Shown: positions 7,373 to 27,269 of the stretch, in pieces | Layout of the letters: every line of letters begins with the position of its first letter | Numbering within the stretch: position 1 is the first letter of the stretch | From: Rhizobium leguminosarum | GTDB lineage: Bacteria; Pseudomonadota; Alphaproteobacteria; Rhizobiales; Rhizobiaceae | Direction of reading: 5' to 3' | Assembly (NCBI RefSeq): GCF_001679785.1 | Contig: NZ_CP016286.1 | Coordinates: 186,001-250,000, forward strand | DNA length: 64,000 nucleotides | Notes under the pieces: model-generated | What the model saw: the letters and a program-made list of their open reading frames with translations, nothing else | Database searches by the model: none | Told to the model about the DNA's origin: nothing | Program-made: the position numbers and the translations under genes

Positions 7373-7449
7373 CGGAGTGTAGCGCAGTCTGGTAGCGCAC
7401 CACGTTCGGGACGTGGGGGTCGAGTGTTCGAATCACTCCACTCCGACCA
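7373..7449 (+). tRNA. tRNA-Pro (CGG)
   Basis: A 77-nt cloverleaf with acceptor CGGAGTG/CACTCCG, D-arm around GCGCAGTCTGGTAGCGC, anticodon stem CCACG/CGTGG with loop TTCGGGA (anticodon CGG), T-arm GAGTG-TTCGAAT-CACTC and an encoded CCA. Its 3' 47 nt, plus one following base, are the left copy of a 48-bp direct repeat that ends the island at 25242. The terminator that should follow the tRNA is found instead after that far copy. Confidence 0.97.
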
Positions 7450-7450
7450 G
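7403..7450 (+). repeat. attL: left 48-bp direct repeat in tRNA-Pro
   Basis: Bases 7403-7450, from the anticodon stem to one base past CCA, are identical to 25195-25242. Integration into a tRNA 3' end by a tyrosine recombinase leaves exactly this: an intact tRNA at one end and a partial copy at the other. Confidence 0.92.
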
Positions 7451-8029: not shown

Positions 8030-8365
8030 CTACCTGTCACACATCTCGACGAGCGTCTGCAGAACAGCCCCGACAGCGTGTTCGGTCAGGTTGGCAGGGG
8101 TACGATCAATATGATGCATGACCGCCTCATAAAATGTCGAGTCTGTGATCTTCGCATCCATTAAGCACTTGAGACGTAGCTGCTGCTGCGCTTGGTCTTT
8201 GACCGGGTCGTCCGAACCTCCGATAAACAGGTATCCTTCAAGCACGCCCCAAATATAGGCTCGGCCGTAGACAGGACTGGACTGCTTCACCTGAGCGCCG
8301 GTCAGAGCAAACACGGGCGACACCATCGCTACCGTGAACGCTATTATGTACATCAATCTCGTCAT
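8030..8365 (-). CDS. Small exported protein (Rap1a/Tai-like size), function unknown
   Basis: A 111-residue protein from ATG 8365 with GAGGGG upstream. It has a signal peptide (MTRLMYIIAFTVAMVSPVFA) and a mature part containing SSPVYGRAYIWGVLEGYLFIGG, a cysteine at LKCLMDAK and a terminal EMCDR. The pattern of an exported alpha-helical domain with YIxGxxEG and two cysteines recalls small immunity or periplasmic proteins of the Rap1a type, but the match is too weak to assign. It is convergent with the preceding exported protein inside the island. Confidence 0.6.
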   Translation of the reverse strand: MTRLMYIIAFTVAMVSPVFALTGAQVKQSSPVYGRAYIWGVLEGYLFIGGSDDPVKDQAQQQLRLKCLMDAKITDSTFYEAVMHHIDRTPANLTEHAVGAVLQTLVEMCDR

Positions 8366-8532
8366 CGTCTGCCCCTCCGCCACGATGACGTGTAACCTTA
8401 AATGAGCTTTTCGGAAATACGCATCAACTCCGACGCCCGAAGAGATCGCTAAGCGCCGATTTGGGACGGCCCTGGACAAGTGTTGACATTATCGCGGATG
8501 GGAACAAATGAGGAACGTATTCCGCCACCGGA

Positions 8533-8838
8533 GTGGAGCCTGTGAAACACCGCCGAAGCATCGATCTGACACGCATGCCTGACCCGCCGGTTGTCGTCGA
8601 CAAACCGAAGGAAGTTGCAGACCTGCACGATATCGCTCACGGGTTCGATGAATTGAGTTCGTGGGCGTTAATCGGCGGTCGCTGCAGCCGGTGTGAACGC
8701 GAAGGCTGGGTGGATCGCGACTGGCTCGAAGCGAAATATCCTTCAATGATTGTGAGTGGCCTAGCTCCATTATTGCGGTGCCGGAAGTGCGGCTCCAAGG
8801 GCAACAATCGCTGGATCGTGGGGAAGCCACCACGATAA
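8533..8838 (+). CDS. Zinc-ribbon protein, function unknown
   Basis: A 101-residue frame from GTG 8533 (a second GTG at 8542 is possible). Two CxxC knuckles, CSRCEREGW and CRKCGSKG, about 30 residues apart form a probable four-cysteine zinc ribbon. The segment between them (DRDWLEAKYPSMIV) is helical. This kind of small zinc-ribbon protein is common on rhizobial plasmids and islands. Start choice is uncertain because no ATG is available. It may bind nucleic acid, but that is inference. Confidence 0.6.
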   Translation: MEPVKHRRSIDLTRMPDPPVVVDKPKEVADLHDIAHGFDELSSWALIGGRCSRCEREGWVDRDWLEAKYPSMIVSGLAPLLRCRKCGSKGNNRWIVGKPPR

Positions 8839-11123: not shown

Positions 11124-12749
11124 ATGTCAGTTTCAAACCGTCCGCCGCTGCCTTCTCTCGCTCTATCGAGACCTCTGCCAAAAAGGCAAAACTTCCAGCC
11201 ATCCGCACGCGGTAGCCTTTCCAAAATTGCGGAGACCCCGCACCTTGTCCATGACCTCGCGCCCGAAAGCCCGCGACCAATGGCAATGCTGCAAGGGGTG
11301 AAGGTCGACAGCGACCATACAATGAGTGCCTTCGACCACGGCGTGTACGAATACCTTCAAAGCTGGTCATACGAGCACGACAAGTCGATGGAGCAGCGAG
11401 CATACCGCATGTGCTTGTCGACGCTCCGCCGGTTCTTGGGGCCTCATGCAAAGACCGCAGACATCGTAGCGTCCCTCGAAAAGCTGGGGGAGATCAAGCT
11501 ATCCTACACCCTGGCATCGGGTCCGCGCTTTATCGGCGTCAAAATCGTGACGAGTTGGTTGGAAGTGAAGGGGGAGGATACCGTAGTCGGTTGGCAGTGG
11601 CCGGAACCGATCCGTGAGCTGATGCGAGACCTGGGTGTCGGACGCTATGCCCATATTGAACTCGTTCCACTGACAACGGACGGCATGAGCAGCAGGTATT
11701 CAGCTCCATTATATAAGTGGCTTGCCTTAGAAGCCGCCCAGCGGAAATGGAAACCGGGTCAGGCAAACACATTTGAACTTCTGATCGAGCCCGGCCGATT
11801 GGTTTCAGAGATCGATTTCCCGGAAGATGAGGAGACCGGCAAATACAACATCGGGAAGCTGACCAAGTTCGCGACATCGACCTTCGTTGAGGACACCAAA
11901 AATGTCCGGAAGTTTTCAGTCGCTGTTAAGCCCGAATATGAAGCTGTCCGAGGTCGGAAGATCAGCGCGTATAAGTTCACGATCACCGTCAACCCGCCGT
12001 CTATGCACAATGTCCGCGTTCGTTACGGCAAGACCGAATTCCGGCGCGGAGGTCAAGACGAGCCCAAGTATCAGGTTCGGTCCGACACCTGGTTGAAGGC
12101 TACGAAAGCTTTCGGCGTCGAGGGCTCGCCAATGCACCATCTCGTCCATTGGAAAATCTTTGACCTCTGGCTCGTCGCGCTCCAGGAAGCGCTCGACAAC
12201 AAGGCTCTGACGCCAGGCTTCGAGACGCGTCAATATCGCGGTGAAAGCCTGCTGATGGCCATCGAAGCAGAAGGAGCGGACTTTGCTTGTTGGGGTTTCC
12301 TCTCCGAAGAAGTCGTCGAGCCCGATCTCCTGGAGCACCTAGAAATGCTCCCGCGCCATGAACGGTCCTACATAGAAATCAACGCCGATAACGGTCGCCG
12401 CGACCGCGTAGGTTGGAAAACCGACCGGCGTCGCAAAGTAAGTAAGAAGCTACATGACGCGATCTACGTACCGGAGGCGGTGGCCGAGGAGCCGGTGACT
12501 TTCGAGACCTGCACCAAAGCCAATGTCTATTTCAGCTTGTCAGTGGACGAACTGGAGAGCCGGATTTTCGAGAAGTTAAGAGCCCTGCGATGGAAGGGTT
12601 CCAGAACATTCACCCTGGTCTCCCACTACGCTGACGAGAACGGCCATGACGGCACCTGGAGTACCGATATCCATCCGACATACGAAGAGTGGTGCGCTCT
12701 CCTGAACAAGCTTTCAGCCGTCAAAAAAGGTACGGAGATTTACTCATGA
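11124..12749 (+). CDS. Replication initiator protein (Rep_3/RepB-like)
   Basis: A 541-residue protein. Two winged-helix-like units are visible. The first (VYEYLQSWSYEHDKSME to SLEKLGEIKL) is followed by SSRYSAPLYKWLALEA, which matches the S-x-Y-S-x-x-L-Y-x-L signature of Rep_3 initiators. The second runs from EIDFPEDEETGKYNIGKLTK to KPEYEAVRGRKISAYKFTI. The C-terminal 200 residues are extra and unassigned. It would bind the repeats upstream and start plasmid-type replication in the cytoplasm. The next gene overlaps its stop by 4 bp. A replication gene inside a tRNA-integrated island suggests an integrated plasmid or an element that replicates after excision. Confidence 0.75.
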   Translation: MSVSNRPPLPSLALSRPLPKRQNFQPSARGSLSKIAETPHLVHDLAPESPRPMAMLQGVKVDSDHTMSAFDHGVYEYLQSWSYEHDKSMEQRAYRMCLSTLRRFLGPHAKTADIVASLEKLGEIKLSYTLASGPRFIGVKIVTSWLEVKGEDTVVGWQWPEPIRELMRDLGVGRYAHIELVPLTTDGMSSRYSAPLYKWLALEAAQRKWKPGQANTFELLIEPGRLVSEIDFPEDEETGKYNIGKLTKFATSTFVEDTKNVRKFSVAVKPEYEAVRGRKISAYKFTITVNPPSMHNVRVRYGKTEFRRGGQDEPKYQVRSDTWLKATKAFGVEGSPMHHLVHWKIFDLWLVALQEALDNKALTPGFETRQYRGESLLMAIEAEGADFACWGFLSEEVVEPDLLEHLEMLPRHERSYIEINADNGRRDRVGWKTDRRRKVSKKLHDAIYVPEAVAEEPVTFETCTKANVYFSLSVDELESRIFEKLRALRWKGSRTFTLVSHYADENGHDGTWSTDIHPTYEEWCALLNKLSAVKKGTEIYS

Positions 12750-13285
12750 TCGACCCGGATAAAATTCTGCCCAGCTGGCGCTTCGCTCTCGATCCGGCGC
12801 TGCAGATCGAGGCTAAAAAGTTCTATGATTTTGTCGACTATTGGCCGCCATATGGTTGGTCTGATGACCAGATCAAACGTTGGGTCGAGAAGGGGATCGT
12901 CGGTGAGATGTCGATCAATTGGCCACTGATCCACCATATCGACCAAAAGCTCGATGGGCTGGTCTCGAAAACGCTCATGTTGATGTGCCATCGGCCTCGT
13001 GATCTTCCGCCGGGGCACGCGCGGCTTTTCGGCAAGGCCTTCTTCAACGTGTCCGGTGCCGAAAGCGTCCGCCATGCAATGCGCTACATGATCGATCACA
13101 AGCTGAAAGGCGGCCCGAGACGGACAGCCCTGGAGCCAGGCGAAGAAGAGTACGATGACGGCCGGATCATCGCTCTGTCATCAGTTCGCGACGATGCTGT
13201 TCATCGTTCCGATCTTAGTGAGGATGCTAGGGATATACTGGAGAAGAAGGAGGAGCAGCAGAAGCTTTCGGTTAACCTTCGTTGA
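12746..13285 (+). CDS. Protein coupled to rep, function unknown
   Basis: A 179-residue protein whose ATG overlaps the rep stop (ATGA), with ACGGAG upstream, so it is translationally coupled to the initiator. It contains YWPPYGWSDDQIKRWVEKG near residues 33-51 and HRPRDLPPGHARLFGKAFFNVSG in the middle. The tail is charged (EKKEEQQKLSV). No family is recognised. Its place suggests a role in replication or copy control of the element, which is an inference from position only. Confidence 0.6.
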   Translation: MIDPDKILPSWRFALDPALQIEAKKFYDFVDYWPPYGWSDDQIKRWVEKGIVGEMSINWPLIHHIDQKLDGLVSKTLMLMCHRPRDLPPGHARLFGKAFFNVSGAESVRHAMRYMIDHKLKGGPRRTALEPGEEEYDDGRIIALSSVRDDAVHRSDLSEDARDILEKKEEQQKLSVNLR

Positions 13286-13471: not shown

Positions 13472-14023
13472 ATGGCGTTCACCCGCAAGTTTTACACTGC
13501 CGACACCCACTTTGGGCATGAGGGTATGCTCACCTTCGGCAGTCGCCCATTCGTCGCCGTCGCAGAGATGGATCGCACCCTCATCGACCTGTGGAATTCA
13601 ACGGTCGGCAAGGACGATATCGTCTATCACCTTGGTGACTTCGCCTTCGGGCTCGGCGATGCCGGACGTGTTCAGTCGATCTTCGCGCAGCTGCACGGAC
13701 GCAAGTTCTTGGTGCTCGGCAACCATGACGTCCGGAGCGATGGCTCTATTCATCCGACGCTGGCCGCGCTGGATTGGGCTGCGGCTCCGGCGCACTACAT
13801 GGAAGCACGCGATGAGGGCGAACGCGTGATCCTCGCCCACTATGCACAGCGCGTGTGGAACGCGTCGCACAACGGCAGCTTTCATTTCTTCGGCCACAGC
13901 CACAGCAAGCTCGAAGCGTTTGGTCGCAGCCGTGATGTCGGCGTCGACATGCCCGATTGCGGGTTTGCGCCTCGCACGTTCAAGCAGTTGACAGCGGGGA
14001 CGTCGCTGGAGATCGCGGCATGA
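13472..14023 (+). CDS. Calcineurin-like metallophosphoesterase
   Basis: A 183-residue protein carrying the complete metallophosphoesterase signature: D-x-H in ADTHFGH (Asp11, His13), GD at 55-56, GNHD at 83-86, AHY at 122-124 and GHSH at 141-144. Two metal ions should be bound. Size and motif spacing resemble phage/plasmid-type YfcE-like phosphoesterases; the substrate is unknown. It is the first of twelve overlapping cistrons (13472-19064) and sits directly behind the structured leader RNA. Its stop overlaps the next start by 4 bp. Confidence 0.88.
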   Translation: MAFTRKFYTADTHFGHEGMLTFGSRPFVAVAEMDRTLIDLWNSTVGKDDIVYHLGDFAFGLGDAGRVQSIFAQLHGRKFLVLGNHDVRSDGSIHPTLAALDWAAAPAHYMEARDEGERVILAHYAQRVWNASHNGSFHFFGHSHSKLEAFGRSRDVGVDMPDCGFAPRTFKQLTAGTSLEIAA

Positions 14024-14340
14024 ACCAGCACTCCGTCAACCGCCTGATCGAGGCTTTTCCGCAATACGCTGACGAGCAGTTGCTGGCACTGCCCCAGGAC
14101 TGGCTCGGTCCCATCAACGAACTCTACTGTGACCTTCGCGATATTCAGAAGCTCGATCCTGTACACCACCCGCTCGACGCTCTGCGCCCTTACGTCGATG
14201 TACAGTGGCTTTTTATCGAAGGCCGTTATGCAGTCTACGTGCGGCCTGTGGAGCCCTTTGAAAACTGGACCGGCGACCAGGGTCTGCGGCTTATCAAAGC
14301 TATCGAGCGTTTCGAAAAATCGACGGAGATCGTAGCATGA
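14020..14340 (+). CDS. Zinc-ribbon-operon protein 1 (N-domain only)
   Basis: A 106-residue protein in ATGA overlap with both neighbours. Residues 22-42 (LLALPQDWLGPINELYCDL) align by eye with the DGW block found at the same residue numbers (26-28) in the next three proteins, followed by the same alternating strand pattern (VDVQWLFIEGRYAVYV) and helix (GLRLIKAIERFEKS). It lacks the C-terminal CxxC...CxxH ribbon, so it looks like a truncated paralogue or a partner subunit. Function is unknown. Confidence 0.65.
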   Translation: MNQHSVNRLIEAFPQYADEQLLALPQDWLGPINELYCDLRDIQKLDPVHHPLDALRPYVDVQWLFIEGRYAVYVRPVEPFENWTGDQGLRLIKAIERFEKSTEIVA

Positions 14341-14762
14341 AGAAGGAAAACTTCTATCGTCTCCGCAATCTCTACCCGCACCTCTGCTGCTACGACGTCA
14401 TGGCGTTGCCCGACGGATGGACGCGAGTCGCCGAGCGTTTGCTTGTTGAACTCAATGCTATTCAGCCACACGTCGACGGTGTTTACGGAAGCCCGGTCCC
14501 GCTAAAAATCCAGGCTTACGGAGGGTTCGCGGTCGCTTTCGCGACGGTCAACACGTTGGGAGGTTGGGATCGCGACAAAGCAATTGCACTTGTCGAAGCG
14601 ATCCAGCGCTTCAACGCAGGTTGCAACAGCACATGCGAAGAGTGCGGCGAATCTAGCGCGATGATTGTCAAAGAGTACGACGGAAGTCGCCAGCAGCGAT
14701 TGTGCCAGCATCATGCTGGCGAACGCTTGCGTGAGTCGTACGACCGGGAGACTTTGCAATGA
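14337..14762 (+). CDS. Zinc-ribbon-operon protein 2
   Basis: A 141-residue protein. Its N-domain has LPDGWTRVAERLLVELN (DGW at 26-28). A central strand-rich part ends in a helix (DKAIALVEAIQRFNAG), and a C-terminal ribbon carries Cys100, Cys103, Cys123 and His126 (CEECGESS and LCQHHAG). The four ligands predict one bound zinc. It is a close relative of the next two gene products and is translationally coupled on both sides by ATGA. No biochemical role is known to me for this arrangement. Confidence 0.7.
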   Translation: MKKENFYRLRNLYPHLCCYDVMALPDGWTRVAERLLVELNAIQPHVDGVYGSPVPLKIQAYGGFAVAFATVNTLGGWDRDKAIALVEAIQRFNAGCNSTCEECGESSAMIVKEYDGSRQQRLCQHHAGERLRESYDRETLQ

Positions 14763-15172
14763 TCCGTGATATCGCCGACCGCCTGCGCGGTGAATACGAA
14801 TACCTTTTCCATGACAGCATGCGAGACCTGCCTGACGGCTGGACAGAGCCGCTCGTCCACCTGCTGGAGCGCATGTACCGCCTGTCGACAGTCGGACCCT
14901 CAAACTTCATGTCGCCGGGACTTATCACTTGGGTCAACCTGCGCGTTGAAGTCGGCTCGTCAAGCGCGAGCGCATTTGCGATGCCGATCATGGCACCCGG
15001 GAAGTGGCACCCTACGCGTGCCTTGGAATGCGTCGAGGCACTCCTCGCCTTCCACAGATCGACCCAGGAAACCTGCAGCGTATGCGGCAGCGAAGGCCAT
15101 CTGCGGATGCGGATTTTGGGCGGGACGAACGAAGGCGTCTACTGCGAAGAGCATGCGGGAGGTGTCGCATGA
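14759..15172 (+). CDS. Zinc-ribbon-operon protein 3
   Basis: A 137-residue paralogue of the preceding protein. DLPDGWTEPLVHLLERMY carries DGW at 26-28. The mid-domain ends with GKWHPTRALECVEALLAFHRS. The ribbon ligands are Cys106, Cys109, Cys129 and His132 (CSVCGSEG and YCEEHAGG). ATGA overlaps on both sides. Sequence has diverged strongly between paralogues apart from the DGW, W/WH and zinc positions, indicating old duplication rather than recent copying. Confidence 0.7.
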   Translation: MIRDIADRLRGEYEYLFHDSMRDLPDGWTEPLVHLLERMYRLSTVGPSNFMSPGLITWVNLRVEVGSSSASAFAMPIMAPGKWHPTRALECVEALLAFHRSTQETCSVCGSEGHLRMRILGGTNEGVYCEEHAGGVA

Positions 15173-15870
15173 GCCCGGACAACATCGACCGCATCCGCAC
15201 AATGCACCGTGCTTACTATCATCACAGTATCGACGGACTGCCTGATGGTTGGACCCAGCTCATCATGAATTTCCTCCATGCGATGGACGGCATCGGCGAC
15301 CTGACAGACAGCGTCTCGATCCGTTTTGAGCGCTGCCCGGATGGTTGCCGCGCATTCGTGTTTCCCGAGATGTCGCGCTGGCATCCGGAACAGATGAACA
15401 CGTTGCGGATCGCACAACGTGAGCTGTATGGGCTGAGCCAGCAGACGTGTGAAATCTGCGGAAACCCTGGCGCAATGGAGGGTAAGCGCGTCCTTTGTAT
15501 CGGGCATGCCGGGGGAGTAGCCGAGAAGGCCGCGCGTGAGCAGGCGCTCTATGATGAAGTCGCGTCCTTGTTTCCAGAAGGCCATGGTTCGGCAATCGAC
15601 CTGGGGGTTCCCGAACACCTTTGGGACCTTCTGTCGACAACTCTTCGAGCTATCCTCAAGCTCGTCGAAAGTGAGGATATCGTCGGCAAAGTCTTGATCA
15701 CGCGCATCGAATTCGACGGTGAAGCTCTGTTCGTCCGTGTCTGTTATCAGAACCTCGAAGCTGTTTTCCTCGGCATCCAGATGTCAATCAACGAAATGAT
15801 CTCAGACCTCGAAGTGCTTTCGGATGAGGCTACTCGCAAGCACAATCTGGGAGGCTCGGATGCTTCCTGA
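15169..15870 (+). CDS. Zinc-ribbon-operon protein 4 (duplicated N-domain)
   Basis: A 233-residue protein. Residues 1-115 repeat the family plan: GLPDGWTQLIMNFLHAM (DGW 26-28), SRWHPEQMNTLRIAQREL, then Cys94, Cys97, Cys110, His113 (CEICGNPG and LCIGHAGG). Residues 120-233 add a second N-domain (LFPEGHGSAIDLGVPEHLWDL followed by strands VLITRIEFDGEALFVRVCY) without a second ribbon. It therefore looks like a fusion of a ribbon-bearing and a ribbon-less paralogue. It overlaps the next gene by 11 bp. Function is unknown. Confidence 0.7.
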   Translation: MSPDNIDRIRTMHRAYYHHSIDGLPDGWTQLIMNFLHAMDGIGDLTDSVSIRFERCPDGCRAFVFPEMSRWHPEQMNTLRIAQRELYGLSQQTCEICGNPGAMEGKRVLCIGHAGGVAEKAAREQALYDEVASLFPEGHGSAIDLGVPEHLWDLLSTTLRAILKLVESEDIVGKVLITRIEFDGEALFVRVCYQNLEAVFLGIQMSINEMISDLEVLSDEATRKHNLGGSDAS

Positions 15871-16309
15871 GAACTTTGATCGCGAGAGTTACATCGCCGG
15901 ACTCCGTGAGAAGCACGCTCGCATCCTGCCGCCCGATATTGCTTTCTCCGTTGAAAATGGCTGGCTCCCGTTGATCGCCGAAAGCCTCGACCAGATCGAG
16001 CAAGCTCTCGGCCGTCACGGCTGGATCGCAAAGGCGAACATTCGTCAGATCAAAGAAAAACTCGGCGATCTACGCATCTACGTCCGACCGCGCTGGGAGT
16101 CCGCCAGCTTCCCGAAGGCTCTGGGTAACGAGCTATCCGACATCCGCGAGCGCTTCACGAGCAGGAGCGTCCAGACATGCGAAATCTGCGGTGACGCCGG
16201 ACAGCTCGATAATTTCGCGGGCTATCTCCAAACGCTGTGCCCCCGGCATGCTGATCAACGCCGGGAATGGATCGCACGCGGACGAAAGGGAGATGTATTC
16301 CATGATTGA
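15860..16309 (+). CDS. Zinc-ribbon-operon protein 5 (KEKxG type)
   Basis: A 149-residue protein from ATG 15860 with GGGAGG upstream. ENGWLPLIAESLDQI (GW 34-35) starts the N-domain. KEKLGDLRIYV (65-75) matches the KEKFGGLRFY motif I know from uncharacterised phage and plasmid proteins that also end in this ribbon. Ligands are Cys107, Cys110, Cys127, His130 (CEICGDAG and TLCPRHA). It links the DGW-type paralogues to that broader family. It overlaps the following gene by 8 bp. Confidence 0.72.
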   Translation: MLPENFDRESYIAGLREKHARILPPDIAFSVENGWLPLIAESLDQIEQALGRHGWIAKANIRQIKEKLGDLRIYVRPRWESASFPKALGNELSDIRERFTSRSVQTCEICGDAGQLDNFAGYLQTLCPRHADQRREWIARGRKGDVFHD

Positions 16310-16595
16310 TATCGTCCGCACCCCAGAGCAGGAAGCTGCCTATCTTCATCTGATCACAGCCCGGTTCCGCGAAGCCCACCGGATCAATGAGGCAGCTAAT
16401 CAGTACCTTACAGCAACTGTCGAGCTGTCTTTTGAAGAGCGCCGGGAGCTTCAGCGTCGCAAGGAATTTGTCACGCCGTTCTTTGCGCATCTCGCTGGTA
16501 TCGAGCGAGCATTTGTCGTTTTTCATACAACATTGCGGATTAACGACATCCTCTGGGCAGTCGAACGCGAGCGTCAGGAGGCCGAAGATGCCTGA
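16302..16595 (+). CDS. Small helical protein in zinc-ribbon operon
   Basis: A 97-residue, largely helical protein (EQEAAYLHLITARFREAHR, then ELSFEERRELQRRKEF). It has neither zinc ligands nor the GW block, so it is not an obvious paralogue. It overlaps both neighbours by 8 bp and must be translated with them. No family is recognised. Confidence 0.62.
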   Translation: MIDIVRTPEQEAAYLHLITARFREAHRINEAANQYLTATVELSFEERRELQRRKEFVTPFFAHLAGIERAFVVFHTTLRINDILWAVERERQEAEDA

Positions 16596-17292
16596 ACGTA
16601 TCGTCGGCGGCCGCGTCGTTCCAGATCGCCGGAAGGTGTATCGCATGGAGCCCATCCAGGTGATTGCGGAGCCGTTTTTGAAGGAACTGTATCCGCGTGT
16701 CGCGCGTCGGCCGGAAGTTGAAGGGGACATCGAGCCGTGGCGGCACGAATACGACAAGGTCTGGCACAATCACGGCGAAAAGATCGTTGACGATATCCAT
16801 GCTTTCGCCGACGTCCATCCTGTCGATGAGCAACGGGCTGGCGGAGCGATCAAGCATTGGGCATACGGCTGCGGTGAGCAATTCGGCGTCCATCACACTG
16901 ACGTGCACGGCGACCGATCTTACTATTGCATCGCCGTGCACGTCGGCTTGCTTGCATACACTGCGCACATGCGAGAGCTGCGGACACGGATGTACTGCGA
17001 ACATGGTTGGCATCGCGTAATCGAGCGCTTCCATGACGCGTGCTCCGGGCAGCCGGGCTACGGCTTTATCTCGGCGTCTGAAAAATGGGGCGGCTTGAAT
17101 CTTGTCTATCGTTGCGATCCCGCCGCTCAGGAACATTGTCGAGAGGCTGAGCGTGTCGCCATCGAACGGGCCTCGCACATATGTGAAAAGTGCGGTCTCG
17201 CAGGGGAGCTTCGACGGTCGGCCTGGCGCAAAACCTTGTGCGACCGGCACTGGCTCGAACGCAGCAAAGAGGGGCCCGATGAGGGAGTCTGA
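16588..17292 (+). CDS. Zinc-ribbon-operon protein 7 (long form)
   Basis: A 234-residue protein. The first 150 residues are unique, with many His, Trp and Tyr and a paired-Cys segment (YGCGEQFGVHHTDVHG). The C-terminal third has the family core: SEKWGGLNLVYRCD (EKWGG at 165-169) and a ribbon with Cys199, Cys202, Cys218, His221 (CEKCGLAG and TLCDRHW). TLCD.H is the best match in this operon to the ribbon of phage/plasmid relatives. It overlaps the next gene by 14 bp. Confidence 0.7.
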   Translation: MPERIVGGRVVPDRRKVYRMEPIQVIAEPFLKELYPRVARRPEVEGDIEPWRHEYDKVWHNHGEKIVDDIHAFADVHPVDEQRAGGAIKHWAYGCGEQFGVHHTDVHGDRSYYCIAVHVGLLAYTAHMRELRTRMYCEHGWHRVIERFHDACSGQPGYGFISASEKWGGLNLVYRCDPAAQEHCREAERVAIERASHICEKCGLAGELRRSAWRKTLCDRHWLERSKEGPDEGV

Positions 17293-17566
17293 TCTTCGCA
17301 ATCGTCACCCCGATCTCATCCATGCCGATGCAGAGATCATCGTCAGGTCAGAATGGCTGCCGTTGATCGACGAATACTTCGAGCATGTAAAAGAAATCTA
17401 CGGCGAGACAAAACCATCCATCTGCTTGCACACTGCTTACGAAGAGGGTGGCCTCGTCATCGACTGCGACGACACGCCGTGGAGCGGGAACCAGAGCCGT
17501 GAGCTGAAGCGTCGGGTTAGGGAACTAGCGCTCGATATTCATCGGAGGAGCCGGGATGTCCTATGA
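17279..17566 (+). CDS. Zinc-ribbon-operon protein 8 (N-domain only)
   Basis: A 95-residue protein from ATG 17279. RSEWLPLIDEYFEHVKEI (Trp26) mirrors NGWLPLIAESLDQI of protein 5, followed by two strands (SICLHTAYEEGGLVIDC) and a helix. The zinc ribbon is absent, as in protein 1. It overlaps its neighbours by 14 and 11 bp. It is a second ribbon-less paralogue, so a ribbon-less partner may be part of the design rather than decay. Confidence 0.62.
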   Translation: MRESDLRNRHPDLIHADAEIIVRSEWLPLIDEYFEHVKEIYGETKPSICLHTAYEEGGLVIDCDDTPWSGNQSRELKRRVRELALDIHRRSRDVL

Positions 17567-18014
17567 AACCGACTTCGTTCAATGGACACGAGATCAAGCG
17601 GCGCTGCTACGTGCTCTCGATCCATCGCCTACAGGTCTCGATGCCGACAATCTCGCGGAAGAAATCGAAGCGCTCGGCAGGATAGAAATCAGCAATATGT
17701 CGCGTCATTTGTATCAGCTATTGAACAACCTGCTGCTGCTGGCTGCGGGAGCGCCTGAGCAAAACCGTTGGATTCGAGATGCCTATTCCGCACACACGGA
17801 CGTAGTATTAGCGTCGTCTCCCTCGCTGGAGCATCACCTCGATCTGGCGCGGACGTACAAGCTCGCGCGTCGCGGAGCTGTCGACATGCTTGTCGAACTC
17901 AAGATCGAGGTTCCGGATTTCCCGACCACCTGTCCGCTGACTGTCGAGCAATTGCTCGATGAAGACTTCAACCTCCCGGCAGTTATTAGACTTATGGAGA
18001 GCCGAGATGTCTGA
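17556..18014 (+). CDS. DUF29 family protein
   Basis: A 152-residue protein with the DUF29 (PF01724) signature: YETDFVQWTRDQAALLRAL at the N-terminus and LDADNLAEEIEALGRIEI around residues 28-45, then HLYQLLNNLLLLAAG. DUF29 proteins are common in cyanobacteria, alphaproteobacteria and mobile elements; their role is not established. Here it is embedded in the zinc-ribbon operon with 11- and 8-bp overlaps. Confidence 0.85.
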   Translation: MSYETDFVQWTRDQAALLRALDPSPTGLDADNLAEEIEALGRIEISNMSRHLYQLLNNLLLLAAGAPEQNRWIRDAYSAHTDVVLASSPSLEHHLDLARTYKLARRGAVDMLVELKIEVPDFPTTCPLTVEQLLDEDFNLPAVIRLMESRDV

Positions 18015-18624
18015 TTTGATGACGCTGCGAGAAGCTGCCGATGTCCTTGGGGTTGACGTTGTGACTTTAGTCCACATCGTTGACGTCGGCGATACCATAC
18101 CAACCCCGTCAGTTCCCAAAGATTTTAAAGACATCGTCTTCGCGCCCGTTGACATCGAGCCTTTCAGGGCTGAACTGCGACGCCGCCGCTTTGAAGATTT
18201 CATGATTGAGTATGCGGACGTCTACACTGAAGACTCCGGACCGGGCGCGAGACATCTGGAGTTTGGGCCAGGTTGGACCAATATCCTCAGGGAATTCTGC
18301 GACGGGCTGCGCGAGTTTCAGAATGCCGGATACCGAACACGGCTTCGTTGGGGAAAAGAGAAATTTGGAGCGATGAGGCTATTCTACGATTGCAGCGACG
18401 AGATCGCTACGTACATCGCTGAGCGGAAGGGGATTGCTTACGGAAAGAGCCTAAGGACTTGCCAGGAGTGCGGAGAGCCAGCGCGGTTGCAGTTTGGCTA
18501 CTCAATCTGCCTCACCCTCTGCGACCGGCACAAGCATCTTGTCGGCGAGCCTGATCCGGCTCGGGACGGTGTAATTCTCGATGTCGACGCTTGGTCGAGG
18601 CAACAGCGGGGAGACCGAGAATGA
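18007..18624 (+). CDS. Zinc-ribbon-operon protein 10 (HTH plus ribbon)
   Basis: A 205-residue protein. Residues 5-25 (MTLREAADVLGVDVVTLVHIV) look like a MerR/excisionase-type helix-turn-helix. The family core follows: FGPGWTNILREFCDGL, then RWGKEKFGAMRLFYD (KEKFG 117-121). The ribbon ligands are Cys152, Cys155, Cys172, His175 (CQECGEPA and TLCDRHK). It suggests that the ribbon domain works near DNA, an inference from the HTH alone. ATGA overlap with the last gene. Confidence 0.72.
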   Translation: MSDLMTLREAADVLGVDVVTLVHIVDVGDTIPTPSVPKDFKDIVFAPVDIEPFRAELRRRRFEDFMIEYADVYTEDSGPGARHLEFGPGWTNILREFCDGLREFQNAGYRTRLRWGKEKFGAMRLFYDCSDEIATYIAERKGIAYGKSLRTCQECGEPARLQFGYSICLTLCDRHKHLVGEPDPARDGVILDVDAWSRQQRGDRE

Positions 18625-19064
18625 GACTACTGCGACCGGCGAACGACCAGCTGAGCGACTACACAACGACACTCGAATTTTTGGCTGGCAACTTGATCGC
18701 GCCCGGCTGCTCGGTCATTCTCGATGAGCAGCAGTATCCCGTATTGCTCGCGTTTCTAGATCGGATCGCAGCCATTGGCGACATCAAATTCAGGTTGGAG
18801 ATGTGCGTCGATCACCGCCCCGGGTACAGCGTTAGTTGGGATAACGATGGCTCTGAAGAGCAAGACGATGAAGTCGACCGATTGATGGGAGAACTCGTGC
18901 AGAGCCTGGGCTTCGATGCCGGGAGCATCTTTAAACCAGGGGTGATTGCTGATCCCGCCGATATCCTGAATGCCGCCGACAGACAGGATGCGGCTCGTGC
19001 AATCTTGGATAAGGTCCCAAACGCCGAGCCGGAAGACTGGGACGAGATGCCGAAAGACAAGTAA
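18621..19064 (+). CDS. Last gene of zinc-ribbon operon, function unknown
   Basis: A 147-residue acidic protein (many Asp/Glu in the second half; SEEQDDEVDRLMGELVQSLGF). It has a possible alpha/beta domain at the N-terminus (TTLEFLAGNLIAPGCSVIL, LLAFLDRIAAIGDIKFRLEM). No zinc ligands. Its low pI and position raise the possibility of a DNA-mimic or inhibitor role, which is speculation. It closes the twelve-cistron overlapping operon. Confidence 0.6.
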   Translation: MRLLRPANDQLSDYTTTLEFLAGNLIAPGCSVILDEQQYPVLLAFLDRIAAIGDIKFRLEMCVDHRPGYSVSWDNDGSEEQDDEVDRLMGELVQSLGFDAGSIFKPGVIADPADILNAADRQDAARAILDKVPNAEPEDWDEMPKDK

Positions 19065-19119: not shown

Positions 19120-19443
19120 CTAATGACGCACGCGCCAGCTTGCCGGTTGCCGCAGCTCTGGCGGGACTTCCTTCCCGTCGAGGAGGAGCCTCATCATCGT
19201 AGCCTGGCACTCCTCCTCCTGTCGATCAGGTTCCGGTGCCGCAATCTGGTAGACGCTGATCAATTCGTACAGGGTCCCGATGTAGTCGATATCGAGCGCT
19301 GCCATTACGGTGTCGCGATCCATTCCGCCGTGACGATATCTTTCCAATGCATCCGTGATCTGTTCGTCAGTCCAGCGACGTCGAAGCTCGGCGATATCGT
19401 CGTCGTAGCCATCGCGGATGCGGGAGAGGTCTGGTGCGGTCAT
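19120..19443 (-). CDS. Small HTH-like protein, function unknown
   Basis: A 107-residue protein from ATG 19443, convergent with the zinc-ribbon operon. RRRWTDEQITDALERYRHG and RDTVMAALDIDYIGTLYELI read as two helix-turn-helix-like pairs; the latter resembles UPF0175/antitoxin-type folds. It is transcribed away from the palindrome-rich region before xis/int and could be its regulator. That function is inferred from position. Confidence 0.6.
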   Translation of the reverse strand: MTAPDLSRIRDGYDDDIAELRRRWTDEQITDALERYRHGGMDRDTVMAALDIDYIGTLYELISVYQIAAPEPDRQEEECQATMMRLLLDGKEVPPELRQPASWRVRH

Positions 19444-20210: not shown

Positions 20211-20868
20211 GATGGGGCGCAAATCAGACGGTATCCGGCCCTGGTACGATAAGAAGATCGACAAATGGCATATCATCGACCCTGAACCTGGCGCACCAAA
20301 GTATCGGTGGAGCCTTGGTTTCGGCGGCGAAAAGACTGGCGAGAAAAGAGCTTTCGCCGAAGCCAAGGCCTACGAAGATGAAAAGAGGGCCGGTGGCCGC
20401 TTGATGATGACGCGACAGTCGACTTCAGATGTCACCGTCGCTGATCTGATTGCATTTTATATCGACCGCCGGATCGAAAACTTCGTGCCCGATGACGATT
20501 ATCCGAACGAACTGGTACGACAGGAGGACGTTCTCGGCCGCCTTGCGGTGCTTCTCGAATTCTTCGAGGACCTGCCGCTCGATTCAGTCAGCCGCGTCCG
20601 TTGCCTGGATTTCGGCAAGTTTGTCCATACTCGTGAAATCGCACGAGCCAAGGCGCTTCATGATCGACAATATGCGATCTATGAGGGCAAGCTTGCAGCA
20701 TTCCAGAAGAAGGCGGCAGCGAGAGAGAAGTTCGTCGCCGACCTTACCGGACGTGGGTGGAACCGTGTTTTACGGCCGCTGCGTAGCAAGCCGCCTGAAC
20801 CTTTGGAGCCCTTCAACCCGGCCTCGATTCCTTATCGACGGTCTGCATCTAGTACCACGCCACAGAGA

Positions 20869-21984
20869 TTATGACTCTTTGACGGGGTAAGCTTTACGGA
20901 GCTTTTTGCGGGCATTTTCGGTTGTGAACATCCATTGGATCTTTGCGCCGTGGGCGTTGCGTTGCTGCTCCCAGGCTGCGACTTCGGCGATTATGGTGTC
21001 TTTGTTGTCGATACGACGGTCGAGGCATTGGCTACGCAGGACACCGATCTCGATCTCGACCATGTTGAGCCAACTGGCGTGCTTGGGCGTGTGGTGGAAC
21101 TCCAGTCGCTTCAGCACCCTTCGAGCTTGCGGGGCGGGAAATGCGTCGTAAAGCGCCCCGGCGGAATGAGTGGAGAGGTTGTCCATCACCACGCGGATGA
21201 TCGGCGCGTCGGGATAATCGACGTCGACCAGTTCGCGCATGCACTCGGCGAAGTCTTGGTTGGTTCGCCGATCGGTGACCTTCACCCTGCGCCAGGGCCG
21301 GTGGGCGTCCATGAAGACAAACAGATTGACCGTGCCGTTTCGGCGATACTCGCAATCGTAGCGTTCAAGCTGGCCAGGCTTGGCCGCAATGGGCTCGCGC
21401 ACTTCGCCGATGAGTTGGGTCGGGCTCTCGTCGAAGCAGACCACGGGCCTTTGTGGATCAGGCGTTTCTGCGTAGAGGTCGAGAACATCCTCCATGCGCG
21501 CGACGTATTCCCCATCGATCTTTGGGATGCACCACATGTCTTTGCGCCAAGGCTTGAGATGGTTCTCAGCCAGCCGGCGACGCACGGTCTCCGAGGACAA
21601 CTGGTCATGATCGGTGAGCCGGACCATCTCATCTGCCAGAAGCTCCAGGGTCCAGCGGGCTCGCCCGGGCGGCGGCTTTGAGCAGGCGGTCGCTACCAAC
21701 AGCGCCTCCTCCTTGCTCGATAGCTTGCGCTCAACACCCGGGCGCGGTTCTTCGCTGAGCGCCCCTTCCAGATTGGCTTCCACAAACCGGCGTTTGGTCC
21801 GGTAAATCGTCGATCCGCTGACGTTCAAGGTTGCCGCGATCACCTCGTCGCTGAAGCCTTCGTTCGCTGCGACCAGGATCTGGGCGCGCTTGATCTTGCG
21901 CGACCTGTGGCACCCCCCGCTCAACAAAGCGGCCAGTTGGTCACGTTCCGATTGGCTAAGCTCTATGTGAAACTTTATATTCAT
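20869..21984 (-). CDS. IS630-family transposase
   Basis: A 371-residue protein from ATG 21984 (MNIKFHIELSQSERDQLAAL) with GGAGGTG upstream. N-terminal paired helix-turn-helix domains (ANEGFSDEVIAATLNVSGST, then ARWTLELLADEMVRLTDH). The DDE catalytic core has VVCFDESPTQL (D), RVVMDNLSTHS (D) and SWLNMVEIEIG (E). All catalytic residues are present and the frame is intact, so it may be active. The longer upstream frame was rejected because it overlaps the divergent gene and lacks a ribosome site. Confidence 0.93.
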   Translation of the reverse strand: MNIKFHIELSQSERDQLAALLSGGCHRSRKIKRAQILVAANEGFSDEVIAATLNVSGSTIYRTKRRFVEANLEGALSEEPRPGVERKLSSKEEALLVATACSKPPPGRARWTLELLADEMVRLTDHDQLSSETVRRRLAENHLKPWRKDMWCIPKIDGEYVARMEDVLDLYAETPDPQRPVVCFDESPTQLIGEVREPIAAKPGQLERYDCEYRRNGTVNLFVFMDAHRPWRRVKVTDRRTNQDFAECMRELVDVDYPDAPIIRVVMDNLSTHSAGALYDAFPAPQARRVLKRLEFHHTPKHASWLNMVEIEIGVLRSQCLDRRIDNKDTIIAEVAAWEQQRNAHGAKIQWMFTTENARKKLRKAYPVKES

Positions 21985-22012
21985 CGACACCTCCTTCAGC
22001 GTGGAGACGCAG

Positions 22013-22297
22013 ATGAATCCCAAAATGAGTCCCTCACTTGACCCGCAAGCCGCAACGGCAAGACGGGGCCTTACGCAGATCCAAGGCCAGTACCTGGCCT
22101 TCATCTACGCCTACAGCCGCATCTTCAAACAGCCTCCGGCCGAAGCCGACATGCGTCGCCACTTCGGCGTTACGGCTCCGTCTGTTCACCAGATGGTGCT
22201 GACCCTCGAGAAGGCGGGTTTTATATCTCGCGTGCCAGGCGCCGCACGCAGCATCCAACTTCTCATCCCACCAGAAGCCCTGCCAATTCTACGATAA
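22013..22297 (+). CDS. LexA-type winged-helix passenger protein of the IS630 element
   Basis: A 94-residue protein inside the IS, divergent from the transposase with 28 bp between the starts. LTQIQGQYLAFIYAYSRIFKQPP and ADMRRHFGVTAPSVHQMVLT match the LexA N-terminal DNA-binding domain (the TPRQ..L.FI......G..PS..E pattern). No autocleavage domain follows. It probably controls the shared promoter region and thus transposition, which is inferred from position. Confidence 0.72.
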   Translation: MNPKMSPSLDPQAATARRGLTQIQGQYLAFIYAYSRIFKQPPAEADMRRHFGVTAPSVHQMVLTLEKAGFISRVPGAARSIQLLIPPEALPILR

Positions 22298-22637
22298 GAC
22301 AAACCGTCATAATCTCTGTGGCGTGGTACTAGACGTTATCTGGAGGAGCTTAGCGCGGCCGTCACCTTTGCGGTCACCTACGAATTCATCCGTCACAAAA
22401 TTCATATCCACCTGCCACCGAAGTATGACCCTCGAAAGCATCAGTTCACGTTGGCGGACGTCCGTCGCATCATCAGGGCGGCGTATCGTCGCAAGGGCAT
22501 GGGCTGGGTCAACGGTAAGCCGGTCAAGGACCTGCCGACCCGGCGGCACCTTGCCCGCTTCGCCTTCCTCGCAATCACGACTGGATCGCGCAAAGACAAG
22601 ATCGAGCGCGTATCATTTTACAATGAAGGGGACCGCC

Positions 22638-24531
22638 TATAGCGCGACGATCAGGATGAGACGCCGCATTGCCTCGCCTGAACTGCTCCCTGAGAATGGG
22701 TTATTGCCTCATCTAAATTGCTCCCGACGAATCAACCTCGGGAGCTTTGATGAGGAAGGTAAGCATGGCGACACGTGTGGAATTGGTGGCGGCGATCAGT
22801 TGTCGCTATGTGTTAGGCGGGCGGGCCGAGAAGGCGAGGATGTTGGACGAGTTCGTGGCGCTCACGGGCTTTCATCGCAAGCATGCGATGCGACTGCTGC
22901 GAGGAGAACGCGAACCGGCGAAGGGTGGTCCTCGGCCAGGGCGCCGGGTTTACGGCGATGACGTGCGGGCGGCGCTCGTCGTTGTTTGGGAGGCGTCGGA
23001 TCGAATTTGCGGCAAGCGACTACACCCCCTGTTGCCAACACTGATCGAAGCGATGGAACGTCATGGACATGGCGATATGAATAGCGAGACGCGCCGGCAA
23101 CTCTTGACGATGAGCCCAGCGACGATTGATCGAGTCCTCAAGGAGATTAAAGCGAGCGCCACGGGTCCGCGGCGCCGGAAAGGATCAACGGCGATTCGGC
23201 GTAGTGTTCCCGTTCGAACGTTCTCGGATTGGGATGACCCCGCACCCGGCTTTGTCGAGGCTGATCTCGTTTCTCATTCCGGCCCGTACGCGAGAGGTGC
23301 CTTCTCGCAAACGCTGGTGTTGACCGATATAGCCACGGGCTGGACGGAATGCGCGCCGCTGCTGGTTCGCGAGCAAACGGTACTGATCACTGCGTTGACC
23401 GAACTGCGCAAGTTGCTGCCGTTCCCGCTGCTGGGCTTCGACACCGACAACGACAGTGTGTTCATGAACGAGAGCGTTCATGAGTATTGCTTGCGAGATA
23501 ATATCGAACTCACCCGTTGCCGCCCCTACCGAAAGAACGACCAGGCATTTGTCGAGCAGAAGAATGGCGCGATCGTGCGCAAGATCGTTGGATACCGACG
23601 CTTCGAGGGGCTGCGAGCCACCCGGGAGCTGGCCAAGCTTTATTCCTCAATGCGGTTGTTCGTGAATTTCTTTCAGCCATCATTCAAGCTGAAAGAAAAG
23701 CACCGTGACGGAGCCAAGGTGATCAAGCGCTATCATCGTCCCGCCACGCCTTATCAGCGGCTGCTTGACGACGCACGCACGCCGGAGGATACATGCCTTC
23801 GGCTCAAGGCGATGTACCTGACGCTCGATCCGGTTCGGCTGCTCCGCGACATACGGCTGGCACAAGAGAGATTGGTCGAAATTGCTGACAAGCCTGATGG
23901 TCCGCCTGCCACCGACGGCGAGGCATTACCGCTCGAAGACTTTCTGTCTGGCTTACGGATTGCTTGGCGTGGTGGTGAAGTGAAACCGACTGCCCGCTCC
24001 AAGCCAGCGGCCAAGCGAGAGCGGCGGAGGCCCGATCCTCTACTCGCCGTCACTGCCGAACTCGAGGATTGGTTCGAGGCGGAGCCTTGGCGAACTTCGC
24101 GAGAGTTGCTTGAACGCTTGCAGGTCAAATACCCCGGCGTGTATCCCGACGGCCTCATTCGGACCGTGCAGCGTCGAATGAAGATCTGGCGCAGTACACA
24201 GGCCAATGCGCTGGTGTTCGGGCCATTCGCCGATGCCGCGCGGCAGACGCAAAACGTAGAGGTCGTGCAGTGAGGCTCTTACCGCCAGGTTGGCCTTCGA
24301 CAACCCGCGGAAAACATGATGAACGCCCGCGAAGCCGCCCGCTCGCTACAGCGCTATTGAGGGCGCGCTCGCGAGCGGCTTCGCTACCTCCGTCACCTTG
24401 CACCAGGTGCGGGGACAAGATCGTAACAACCCGTGAGGCATTCGAGAACATCCGAGTGAGGCAACGGCATTATTCTCCGGGAACACTCTTGGGTGAGGCA
24501 ATACGAGTCTCACCTTGTTTGTCGCCGCGCA
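22638..24531 (+). mobile_element. ISNCY-like insertion sequence in integrase
   Basis: 1894 bp. Flanked by a 7-bp direct repeat GACCGCC (22631-22637 and 24532-24538). Terminal 25-bp imperfect inverted repeats end in TGAGAC, and internal copies of ATTGCCTC, with related TGAGGCAA copies at the other end, extend the similarity about 60 bp inward. The boundary choice is confirmed because exactly this excision restores the integrase reading frame. Confidence 0.85.
22765..24273 (+). CDS. ISNCY-like / integrase-core transposase
   Basis: About 502 residues from ATG 22765 (an in-frame ATG at 22750 is possible). N-terminal helix-turn-helix part (SCRYVLGGRAEKARMLDEF, GFHRKHAMRLLRGE). DDE core with GFVEADLVSH (D), LLGFDTDNDSVFMNE (D) and FVEQKNGAIVRK (E), then a basic linker and a C-terminal helical domain. 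No internal stop is seen. The canonical DSDNGSEF motif reads DTDNDSVF here, a conspicuous change near the second catalytic Asp. Confidence 0.85.
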   Translation: MATRVELVAAISCRYVLGGRAEKARMLDEFVALTGFHRKHAMRLLRGEREPAKGGPRPGRRVYGDDVRAALVVVWEASDRICGKRLHPLLPTLIEAMERHGHGDMNSETRRQLLTMSPATIDRVLKEIKASATGPRRRKGSTAIRRSVPVRTFSDWDDPAPGFVEADLVSHSGPYARGAFSQTLVLTDIATGWTECAPLLVREQTVLITALTELRKLLPFPLLGFDTDNDSVFMNESVHEYCLRDNIELTRCRPYRKNDQAFVEQKNGAIVRKIVGYRRFEGLRATRELAKLYSSMRLFVNFFQPSFKLKEKHRDGAKVIKRYHRPATPYQRLLDDARTPEDTCLRLKAMYLTLDPVRLLRDIRLAQERLVEIADKPDGPPATDGEALPLEDFLSGLRIAWRGGEVKPTARSKPAAKRERRRPDPLLAVTAELEDWFEAEPWRTSRELLERLQVKYPGVYPDGLIRTVQRRMKIWRSTQANALVFGPFADAARQTQNVEVVQ

Positions 24532-25194
24532 GACCGCCCTTGGATCGACCTCTATCAGGTAGTTGATGAGGTTACTGGTAAGCTCCTGTGGAAGGGTCGA
24601 TATCACCGGCTTGGAGAAGAAGAGGTTAGACACAAAACAAAGCAGGCACCTGACTTCCCGATCCCTGAAATCGTCGTCAAGCGGCTGGTCCGGTGGCGTG
24701 ATGAGGGCATCATCTATCCTTGTGCTTACCCCTACCACCGGCTTGGGAAGGAGGAGCCGGGTAACGTGAAGGATGGCATGAAGGCCATTTTCGAAGATAC
24801 ATTCGGCGACAATACCGAGTCTGTAATCCATACGTTCCGACATTCAGCAGCCACTTGGCTCTGTGCTCAGAAGGACCTTCCGCTTCCGAGCATCGCCGCT
24901 TACCTGGGCATGAGCACCGAGACGCTGGTGAAGACTTATGCGAAACACCGTGAGGAAGACCTTCAGAAAATTGCCGAAGCAATCTCCGATCCGCTGAGGA
25001 AATCGACGGGGGTCCACGCGGTGAAGTTGCGTGAGACGAAGCCGAAACAGGACAAGAACACCCGACAGAAATCGACAGAAAACGACAAAATGAAAATGAA
25101 TTGGAGTGAACGAGAATCAACGCCGGTGGCTAAAAGAAAAACAAATTCAATCGGAAAGGCCGCGTAGCAAGGTGACTCGATTACTGAAGCGGAT

Positions 25195-25242
25195 CGTTCG
25201 GGACGTGGGGGTCGAGTGTTCGAATCACTCCACTCCGACCAG
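25195..25242 (+). repeat. attR: right 48-bp direct repeat
   Basis: Identical to 7403-7450. It preserves the anticodon loop to the tRNA 3' end but no acceptor 5' half, so it is not a functional tRNA. The bases after it (CTAGAAACCCC) are those expected after the original tRNA. Confidence 0.92.
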
Positions 25243-26704: not shown

Positions 26705-26736
26705 GTTCGGGACGTGAATCACTCCACTCCGACCAG
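26705..26736 (+). repeat. Degenerate third copy of the tRNA-Pro att sequence
   Basis: GTTCGGGACGTG followed directly by AATCACTCCACTCCGACCAG reproduces attL/attR with 15 internal bases deleted; the next two bases (CT) also match attR's flank. This points to an earlier or tandem integration at the same tRNA, with 25243-26704 as the remaining stub. Confidence 0.7.
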
Positions 26737-26819: not shown

Positions 26820-27269
26820 TCATTCCGACCGGAACGCGGCGGGAAGATCGACAGCGACGTCAAGCGGCTGGAAATGCCGCAGGTTTTCCGTAATGACGGT
26901 GAGGTCGTAGGCGCGTGCGGTCGCCGCGATGAAGAGATCGCCAAGGCCGGGATGACGGCCTTGGCTCTCGGCTTCATCTTCCAGAGCGCCGACGATGCGC
27001 GCGACAACGGTATCCATCGGCAAGATCCGATCCCCGAAACTCTCGGTGATGACGTCCAGCCATGTCGAAAGGCGCTTTGCCCGCTCGATCCCGCCGCGAC
27101 GGTGAAGGCTCCTCATTCCCTTCTCGATCTCCGCGACTGACAGAGCCGACAGAAACAGGCTATCGGCTTCGCCCTGCTCATGAAACCATGCCCGCACCGG
27201 ATCGGACGCCGGCGCCTTGCCCGGCGCGAGCTTCGAGATGATGTTCGTGTCGAGAAGATAGGCGGTCAC
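26820..27269 (-). CDS. PIN-domain toxin (VapC/FitB type)
   Basis: A 149-residue PIN-domain ribonuclease. The acidic cluster is visible in YLLDTNIISKL (Asp), LSVAEIEKGM (Glu) and LGDLFIAATARAYDLTVITENLRHF (Asp pair). It should cleave RNA with Mg2+ when freed from its antitoxin. It overlaps the upstream antitoxin gene by 4 bp, the usual type II arrangement. Length and the ENLRHF motif place it with VapC/FitB. Located just outside the island, near the degraded att copy. Confidence 0.9.
   Translation of the reverse strand: MTAYLLDTNIISKLAPGKAPASDPVRAWFHEQGEADSLFLSALSVAEIEKGMRSLHRRGGIERAKRLSTWLDVITESFGDRILPMDTVVARIVGALEDEAESQGRHPGLGDLFIAATARAYDLTVITENLRHFQPLDVAVDLPAAFRSE

Follow-up and report, generated by a model that had tools for sequence, protein, structure and literature searches.

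The stretch analysed here, a 64,000-nt window of Rhizobium leguminosarum DNA (assembly GCF_001679785.1, contig NZ_CP016286.1, positions 186,001-250,000 of the forward strand, with all coordinates below given as positions in the window), carries at 13472-19064 an operon of twelve cistrons, named c1 to c12 in order. Its first cistron encodes a calcineurin-like metallophosphoesterase (MPE), and eight of its twelve products (c2, c3, c4, c5, c6, c8, c9 and c11) form one family. On sequence evidence, small rhizobial integrative elements and some plasmids carry this operon as a fixed module, in which the MPE and the eight paralogues probably work together as one undescribed machine. The anatomy of the operon is well supported; its function is what we infer from it. 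The open-access literature searched contained no description of the family or of the operon, which is new as a gene system, no new mechanism being claimed as shown.

All twelve cistrons lie on the forward strand and, as the original prediction had it, they overlap throughout by 4-14 bp: measured at all 11 junctions from c1 to c12, the overlaps are 4, 4, 4, 4, 11, 8, 8, 14, 11, 8 and 4 bp, the one between c6 and c7 becoming 17 bp if c7 begins at its alternative start, 16293. TGA is the stop codon of each of the first 11 cistrons, and Shine-Dalgarno-like stretches, judged by eye, stand ahead of the cistron starts. True paralogy of the set was confirmed by a phmmer comparison of the 12 operon proteins among themselves (a database of 12), which chained c2, c3, c4, c5, c6, c8, c9 and c11 through linking pairs with E values from 4e-5 to 8e-14; the shuffle control gave no match at E<0.05 in 14,400 query-by-shuffle comparisons. 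The two sub-profiles of the family also match along their entire extent (hhalign probability 98.4, E 8e-15). Over the whole genome, the family profile retrieved c3, c5, c6, c8, c9 (2.5e-5) and c11, and c4 as a query retrieved c3 (1.8e-9) and c5 (3.1e-9).

The ribbon CxxCG...C..H was found by a motif check in the six products for which it had been predicted, i.e., c3 (14337-14762, 141 aa; phmmer to c4 7.7e-14), c4 (14759-15172, 137 aa), c5 (15169-15870, 233 aa; phmmer to c4 1.2e-13), c6 (15860-16309, 149 aa), c8 (16588-17292, 234 aa; phmmer to c11 4.7e-8) and c11 (18007-18624, 205 aa). It is absent from c2 (14020-14340, 106 aa; phmmer to c3 9.7e-7) and c9 (17279-17566, 95 aa; phmmer to c6 2.5e-5), the two proteins that had been taken for ribbon-less copies and that phmmer indeed places in the family. 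The cistrons c3, with the ribbon CEECG...LCQHH, c4 and c5 are of an LPDGW type and share DGW at residues 26-28, in line with the earlier reading. The canonical KEKxG paralogue is c6, whereas c8 joins a helical-looking N-domain to an EKxG-type domain with ribbon, and c11 a putative DNA-binding N-domain to a KEKFG domain with ribbon. The extra C-terminal domain of c5 can be aligned with its counterparts in loci L011-L013. It had been regarded as a duplicated N-domain, which the comparison with the N-domain did not support (probabilities 5.4 and 0.3).

The AlphaFold model of c6 (pLDDT 96.5, pTM 0.89) adopts an alpha-beta-beta-alpha plus ribbon fold, in which helices 8-18 and 33-52 are followed by strands 59-67 and 70-77, helix 86-103, the ribbon and a final helix. 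The motif K65-E66-K67-x-G69, invariant in 44 aligned sequences, is placed where the two long strands of the model meet. Among the predicted metal ligands of the ribbon, C107, C110 and C127 are invariant in the same alignment and H130 is conserved in at least 90% of it. In the model, the ribbon consists of short strands and a helix with the four ligands CxxC...C..H in place; by ligand pattern and model it fits the zinc ribbon/treble clef type, and it may bind metal. For c11 (AlphaFold pLDDT 92.6), the Foldseek list was rich in MerR-family chains (best probability 0.98, none at E<=0.001; no Pfam match), suggesting a MerR-like winged helix-turn-helix (HTH) as its N-domain. The N-domain of c8 has relatives at the N-termini of the c11-type proteins of L011, L012 and L013 (hhalign 95.2 over 64 columns), with hmmsearch values of 2e-4 to the window and 7e-7 to L010.

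No significant match to the family was found in Pfam, NCBIfam, PADLOC or the PDB sequences, c2 and c9 being left out of the NCBIfam and PADLOC comparisons. Likewise, no named ribbon or nucleic-acid-binding family from Pfam, NCBIfam, PHROGs or PDB was matched, at its cut-off or at E<=0.001, by the window proteins or by A3, a profile whose first row is c6. A3 matched 836 database proteins at E<=0.001, and no precomputed Pfam domain occurs among the best 120 of them; the c11 search gave 68 proteins at this threshold, itself included. Fold searches returned no convincing solved structure, although the domain could belong to such a family without giving a fold match.

The enzyme partner of the family, c1 (13472-14023, 183 aa), aligns over most of its length to the PHROG 547 phosphoesterase (2.5e-41). 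The metal motifs DxH, GDx, GNHD, H and GHxH are all present in c1-type MPEs, and residues D11, H13, D56, N84-D86, H123, H142 and H144 of c1 are invariant in 9/9 aligned MPEs. Because Metallophos and Metallophos_2 scored below the curated Pfam cut-offs (18.9 vs 21.5 bits and 18.8 vs 27 bits), the assignment of c1 to the calcineurin-like superfamily is a sequence-based one that rests on these motifs and PHROG 547. In its own 8.57-Mb genome, c1 is the sole match of the MPE profile, so the linkage of MPE and paralogues is not background there. This linkage was scored over the window and 44 further loci, comprising 19 clusters with at least two paralogues and 26 singletons, with an MPE counted when found upstream, on the same strand and within 1.5 kb. 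An MPE lay directly upstream of 14 of the 19 clusters vs three of the 26 singletons (Fisher p 3e-5, uncorrected for relatedness), which agrees with the expectation that the paralogues travel with this enzyme. The 14 linked MPEs are all <80% identical and fall into six groups at 60%. On a Methylobacterium plasmid (L018:5987-6924), the same MPE overlaps a DUF6634 gene in place of a ribbon paralogue, and DUF6634 copies also lie near family members in pAt12D13c and pAt2.

Three cistrons stand outside both the enzyme and the family. DUF29, encoded by c10 (17556-18014, 152 aa; PF01724, 85.7 bits vs a cut-off of 22.5, E 4.4e-24), had been named as a second travelling companion. Single-sequence profiles found neither DUF29-like nor c7-like genes in the other arrays; therefore, DUF29 does not appear to belong to the conserved set, and it looks, together with the small unrelated protein c7 (16302-16595, 97 aa; no Pfam match at cut-off), like a private insertion. 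The last cistron, c12 (18621-19064, 147 aa), is outside the family by profile (hhalign probability 0.3%), and its orthologues terminate the operon in L011, L012 and L013. A further gene, alike by eye, occurs inside the arrays at L048:10833-11354, L049:9589-10041, L050:10616-11143 and L052:8982-9452.

The paralogues appear, from the comparison of their sequences, to be an old fixed set and not a young repertoire. In a tree built with FastTree from the 75 domains of 19 elements, c5, c6, c8, c9 and c11 group with counterparts from other elements, with a support of only 0.73 for c9 and with c3 unresolved. The nearest relative was found within the same element for 3/75 domains, vs a label-shuffle mean of 3.7, and in another element for 72/75. 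Reciprocal-best genes kept a collinear order in 70 of 72 comparisons, drawn from 25 element pairs that are not independent of one another. Purifying selection was observed in sister elements (L011-L013 and L048-L050, the window left out), where, over ten gene sets, dN/dS was 0.09-0.38 in those 28 of 30 pairs whose dS was finite, many of the dS values being above 1 and rough. Members with and without KEK were both present in 19/22 arrays by pattern scan. Taken together, the old subfamilies, the fixed order, the N-domain common to c8 and c11-type proteins and this mixture of members point to specialised subunits rather than a variable repertoire. Of the two roles suggested by the original prediction, the diversifying repertoire of recognition factors is not supported by the same-element counts and the dN/dS values. 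The multi-subunit complex retains the signs of a multi-component system, i.e., the fixed order and the fusion of the c8 domain to c11-type proteins, but the complex itself is a matter of inference.

The operon is the biggest gene block of its element, which sits on a 5.03-Mb contig. The left end of the element, attL (7403-7450, +), is the 3' end of a tRNA-Pro(CGG) gene (7373-7449 by ARAGORN and Rfam), and attR (25195-25242, +) is a second, exact 48-bp copy in direct repeat; zero chance matches are expected for the 24-bp core. The positions of these copies give an element of ~17.8 kb, insertions included. Thus, the island described as plasmid-like does have a plasmid-like initiator gene but is a chromosomal integrative element, not a plasmid. 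Small genes and an IS3-like transposase pair (by eye) come first, followed by a gene for a 541-aa replication initiator-like protein (11124-12749, +), a gene for a 198-aa protein (12689-13285, +), the operon and the pieces of an integrase gene. The initiator-like protein has no direct Pfam match, PF01051 included; it is linked to Rep_3-type ORFs by a single-sequence profile, which matches ORFs of L170, L172 and L197 that the Rep3_N (PF01051) profiles of L010 and/or L012 also match. The 198-aa protein has a homologue in L011 (E 3e-11), located between rep and MPE. Past the operon, a 107-aa protein (19120-19443, -; no Pfam match at cut-off) resembles, by eye, genes downstream of the L010 and L012 arrays. 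The integrase gene (20212-25107, +) is broken into three pieces (20212-20850, 22325-22636 and 24532-25107), which the L011 integrase matches in tblastn at 63-65% identity; both gaps contain ORFs that look, by eye, transposase-like. No capsid or relaxase gene was recognised by eye in the window gene list (no dedicated scan), nor any packaging-interference or mobilisation gene in the element (packaging genes were not searched by profile). Beyond attR, the tRNA-Pro 3' end recurs for a third time as a 21-bp copy at 26716-26736, which may mark where another or an earlier insertion ends, and past it lie two small overlapping genes (26820-27517, -), PIN-toxin/antitoxin-like by eye.

Profile A3 was matched in at least 10/148 genomes of the genus and in at least 29/346 genomes drawn from the bacterial family, across 24 of 109 genera, and a related profile in at least 3/289 genomes drawn from the class; the genome of the window is itself among those counted, and the numbers are minima because only a restricted number of the first-look candidates went on to scoring. 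The arrays hold 2 to 8 paralogues. Of the 19 clusters, 11 are accompanied by initiator genes that belong to, or are linked to, the Rep_3 kind (four more have genes that are Rep-like by position only) and 15 by integrase-like genes, while singletons have initiators in 6/26 cases and integrase-like genes in 5/26. The initiator and integrase models are single sequences from the same loci, and the two of five integrase models that were run against Pfam both fell under the cut-off. Upstream of the initiator gene of the sister element L011, an AbiEii-type nucleotidyltransferase is encoded (L011:498-1553, -; PF08843, 1.4e-7).

Likeness to phage and plasmid proteins had been predicted, and relatives were indeed found in both. 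Scans of viral contigs seeded with the KEK motif gave at least 258 relatives among the 600 stretches listed, and at least 560 among 600 in a second scan. Viral contigs carry exactly one family gene in 155/155 loci (many of which share contigs), vs the rhizobial arrays. Genes for HAD_SAK_2-like phosphatases lie within 1.5 kb in 34/155 viral loci (19 contigs), often in overlapping frames, and the 91 viral neighbours scanned included eight HAD_SAK_2, three DNA ligase, three Metallophos and one RNA ligase matches. The MPE profile was matched in the flanks of six of the first 80 viral loci, in no case adjoining the family gene, as judged from coordinates. Three PHROGs were each matched by one of 53 phage members (best 4.9e-5), and c11 had no match in 50,697 phage records. 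The ribbon domain is also found in fusions: in P0188 with DUF1937/DUF4406, and in L113:7920-8645 and eight database proteins (P0155-P0160, P0162 and P0213) with a C-terminal domain which, from its motifs, we take to be HAD-like. In L125, this C-terminal domain is the separate next gene (8277-8681). Partners of differing kinds thus look, by sequence, to recur around the domain, several of them phosphatase- or nucleotide-related. In plasmid records, the c11 query matched 7/72,556 at E<=1e-5 and a plasmid paralogue query matched 22 at E<=1e-3. Among the plasmid neighbours, a thermonuclease gene occurs on all three of pRphaN841a, pAt2 and pAt12D13c, the NHEJ ligase gene ligD and a Y-family polymerase gene occur on pRphaN841a and pAt2, a zincin-like gene on pRphaN841a and an ArdC-like gene on pAt12D13c. 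A thermonuclease-family gene lies inside the plasmid versions of the operon (L014:7442-7843, L015:7256-7657 and L277:16453-16857). On the circular pRphaN841a, the operon and mobF are separated by ~36 kb in one direction and by ~39 kb in the opposite one.

As for the function, the reading that we favour, tentatively and short of calling it likely, is a phosphoesterase complex of several subunits, whose substrates would be nucleic-acid ends or nucleotides and which would act while the element establishes itself or replicates. The pairing with a phosphoesterase, the conserved hairpin and ribbon and the DNA-binding-like N-domain suggest a complex that presents a substrate to the enzyme, and the neighbourhood of initiator genes together with the plasmid neighbours suggests a role in establishment or replication. 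Under this scheme, c1 would be co-produced, by presumed translational coupling, with a heteromeric set of alpha-beta-beta-alpha plus zinc-ribbon paralogues, which could hold phosphorylated nucleic-acid ends or nucleotides and present them to the phosphoesterase. The canonical KEKxG-hairpin members would bind the substrate or the enzyme, those lacking KEK or the ribbon would have a structural role, and c11 might tether the complex to DNA through its MerR-like HTH. Acting as the element enters or replicates, the complex would heal damaged ends or remove a host signal (counter-defence or establishment). A bolder extension, which we regard as rather unlikely, would make the domain a general phosphoesterase partner in phages and mobile elements, across unrelated enzyme folds (calcineurin-like and HAD-like), that expanded in rhizobial elements into an obligate hetero-oligomeric machine, in which canonical, degenerate and ribbon-less subunits surround a single enzyme, for nucleic-acid repair or counter-defence.

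Several points weigh against the favoured reading. Five of the 19 arrays have no MPE directly upstream on the same strand, since it lies inside or beside the cluster in another arrangement in L185 and L188 and is missing from the covered stretch in L052, L169 and L171; moreover, 20/26 singletons have no MPE anywhere in the covered stretch. Contig ends truncate some loci, and part of the sequences behind the profiles came from arrays that were then counted (the window, L051, L166, L167 and L050). In the viral set, KEK conservation is partly by construction because the scan pattern contained KEK, a single phage clade (one 50%-identity cluster) accounts for the HAD_SAK_2 linkage, and nucleotide enzymes are not the sole neighbours, as 45 families were matched, most of them once. 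The fused HAD-like domain was confirmed by neither Pfam nor hhalign, and PDB sequence and fold searches matched no known nucleic-acid-binding domain.

The initiator genes and the MerR-like N-domain of c11 would also suit a control of replication, copy number or excision, exerted by the DNA-binding members at the origin or att sites of the element itself. The operon comes after the initiator gene, 11 arrays have initiators that belong or are linked to the Rep_3 kind and four more have genes Rep-like by position only, and the element is small with few other genes. Since one version is located on a RepABC plasmid, ~23 kb from repA, and the phosphoesterase is left unexplained by such control alone, this alternative is considered unlikely. 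At the other extreme, the cistrons might have no joint function and be independent cargo kept together by transfer, their overlaps reflecting a compact operon only. The variable array size and the apparent private insertions of c7 and DUF29 fit such cargo; the collinear order, the recurrent MPE linkage and the N-domain that c8 shares with c11-type proteins speak against it, making it the least probable of the explanations considered.

Anti-phage defence, with paralogues that sense phage components and the phosphoesterase as effector, would match the patchy distribution in the family, the integrase-like genes by 15/19 arrays and the AbiEii-like gene of L011. However, the PADLOC scan of 10 of the 12 operon proteins (all except c2 and c9) gave nothing below E 0.01, and purifying selection on old fixed subfamilies is unlike a repertoire of arms-race sensors, so that we judge it quite unlikely. 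For the broader suggestion of defence or counter-defence made in the original prediction, the anti-restriction-type, repair and toxin-antitoxin neighbours on three plasmids are only suggestive. Satellite-like interference, i.e., an array that arose from a phage protein present in one copy and that competes with or hijacks the phage version, draws on the single-copy domain common in viral contigs, on the integrase pieces, initiator-like gene and tRNA att site of the element, and on the lack of any capsid or relaxase gene in the gene list read by eye. It is very doubtful, given that plasmid copies exist, that no helper phage or packaging gene was identified (the latter not profile-searched) and that the viral relatives are metagenomic contigs without stated hosts, c11 being unmatched among phage records.

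Compared with known systems, c1 resembles the phage calcineurin-like MPEs (PHROG 547; PDB 1xm7 aq_1665) over most of its length and in all metal motifs, but an array of ribbon paralogues with such an MPE is undescribed in the open-access literature searched. In one phage lineage, relatives of the family that occur as one copy have HAD_SAK_2 phosphatases of RNA-repair proteins (PF18143) as their neighbours, whereas a Pfam scan found none in the rhizobial operon and their fold is unlike that of the MPE. RNA repair systems combine an end-healing enzyme and an RNA ligase in one operon; the window operon has no ligase, while phage neighbours include HAD_SAK_2 and ligases. As with the anti-defence genes of plasmid leading regions (PMC11541004), two plasmid copies are near a zincin-like or ArdC-like gene and two near repair genes, but the main text of that article mentions no phosphoesterase, metallophos or zinc, and the window copy is chromosomal. 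Finally, the tRNA att, the integrase pieces, the initiator-like gene and the ~17.8 kb (insertions included) recall phage satellites and integrative plasmids, from which the element differs by its paralogue operon as the largest gene block and by the absence, by eye, of packaging-interference or mobilisation genes.

The domain occurs commonly in viral contigs and also on plasmids, and the libraries searched hold no curated family for it; it now has a conserved, ordered multi-paralogue operon and an enzyme partner. This operon supplies a well-delimited set of genes, a fold modelled with confidence, the KEKxG hairpin as a functional candidate and natural variants that can be put to the test. If the proposed function is true, it would add a multi-subunit machine for end processing or signal removal to the tools with which mobile elements establish themselves.

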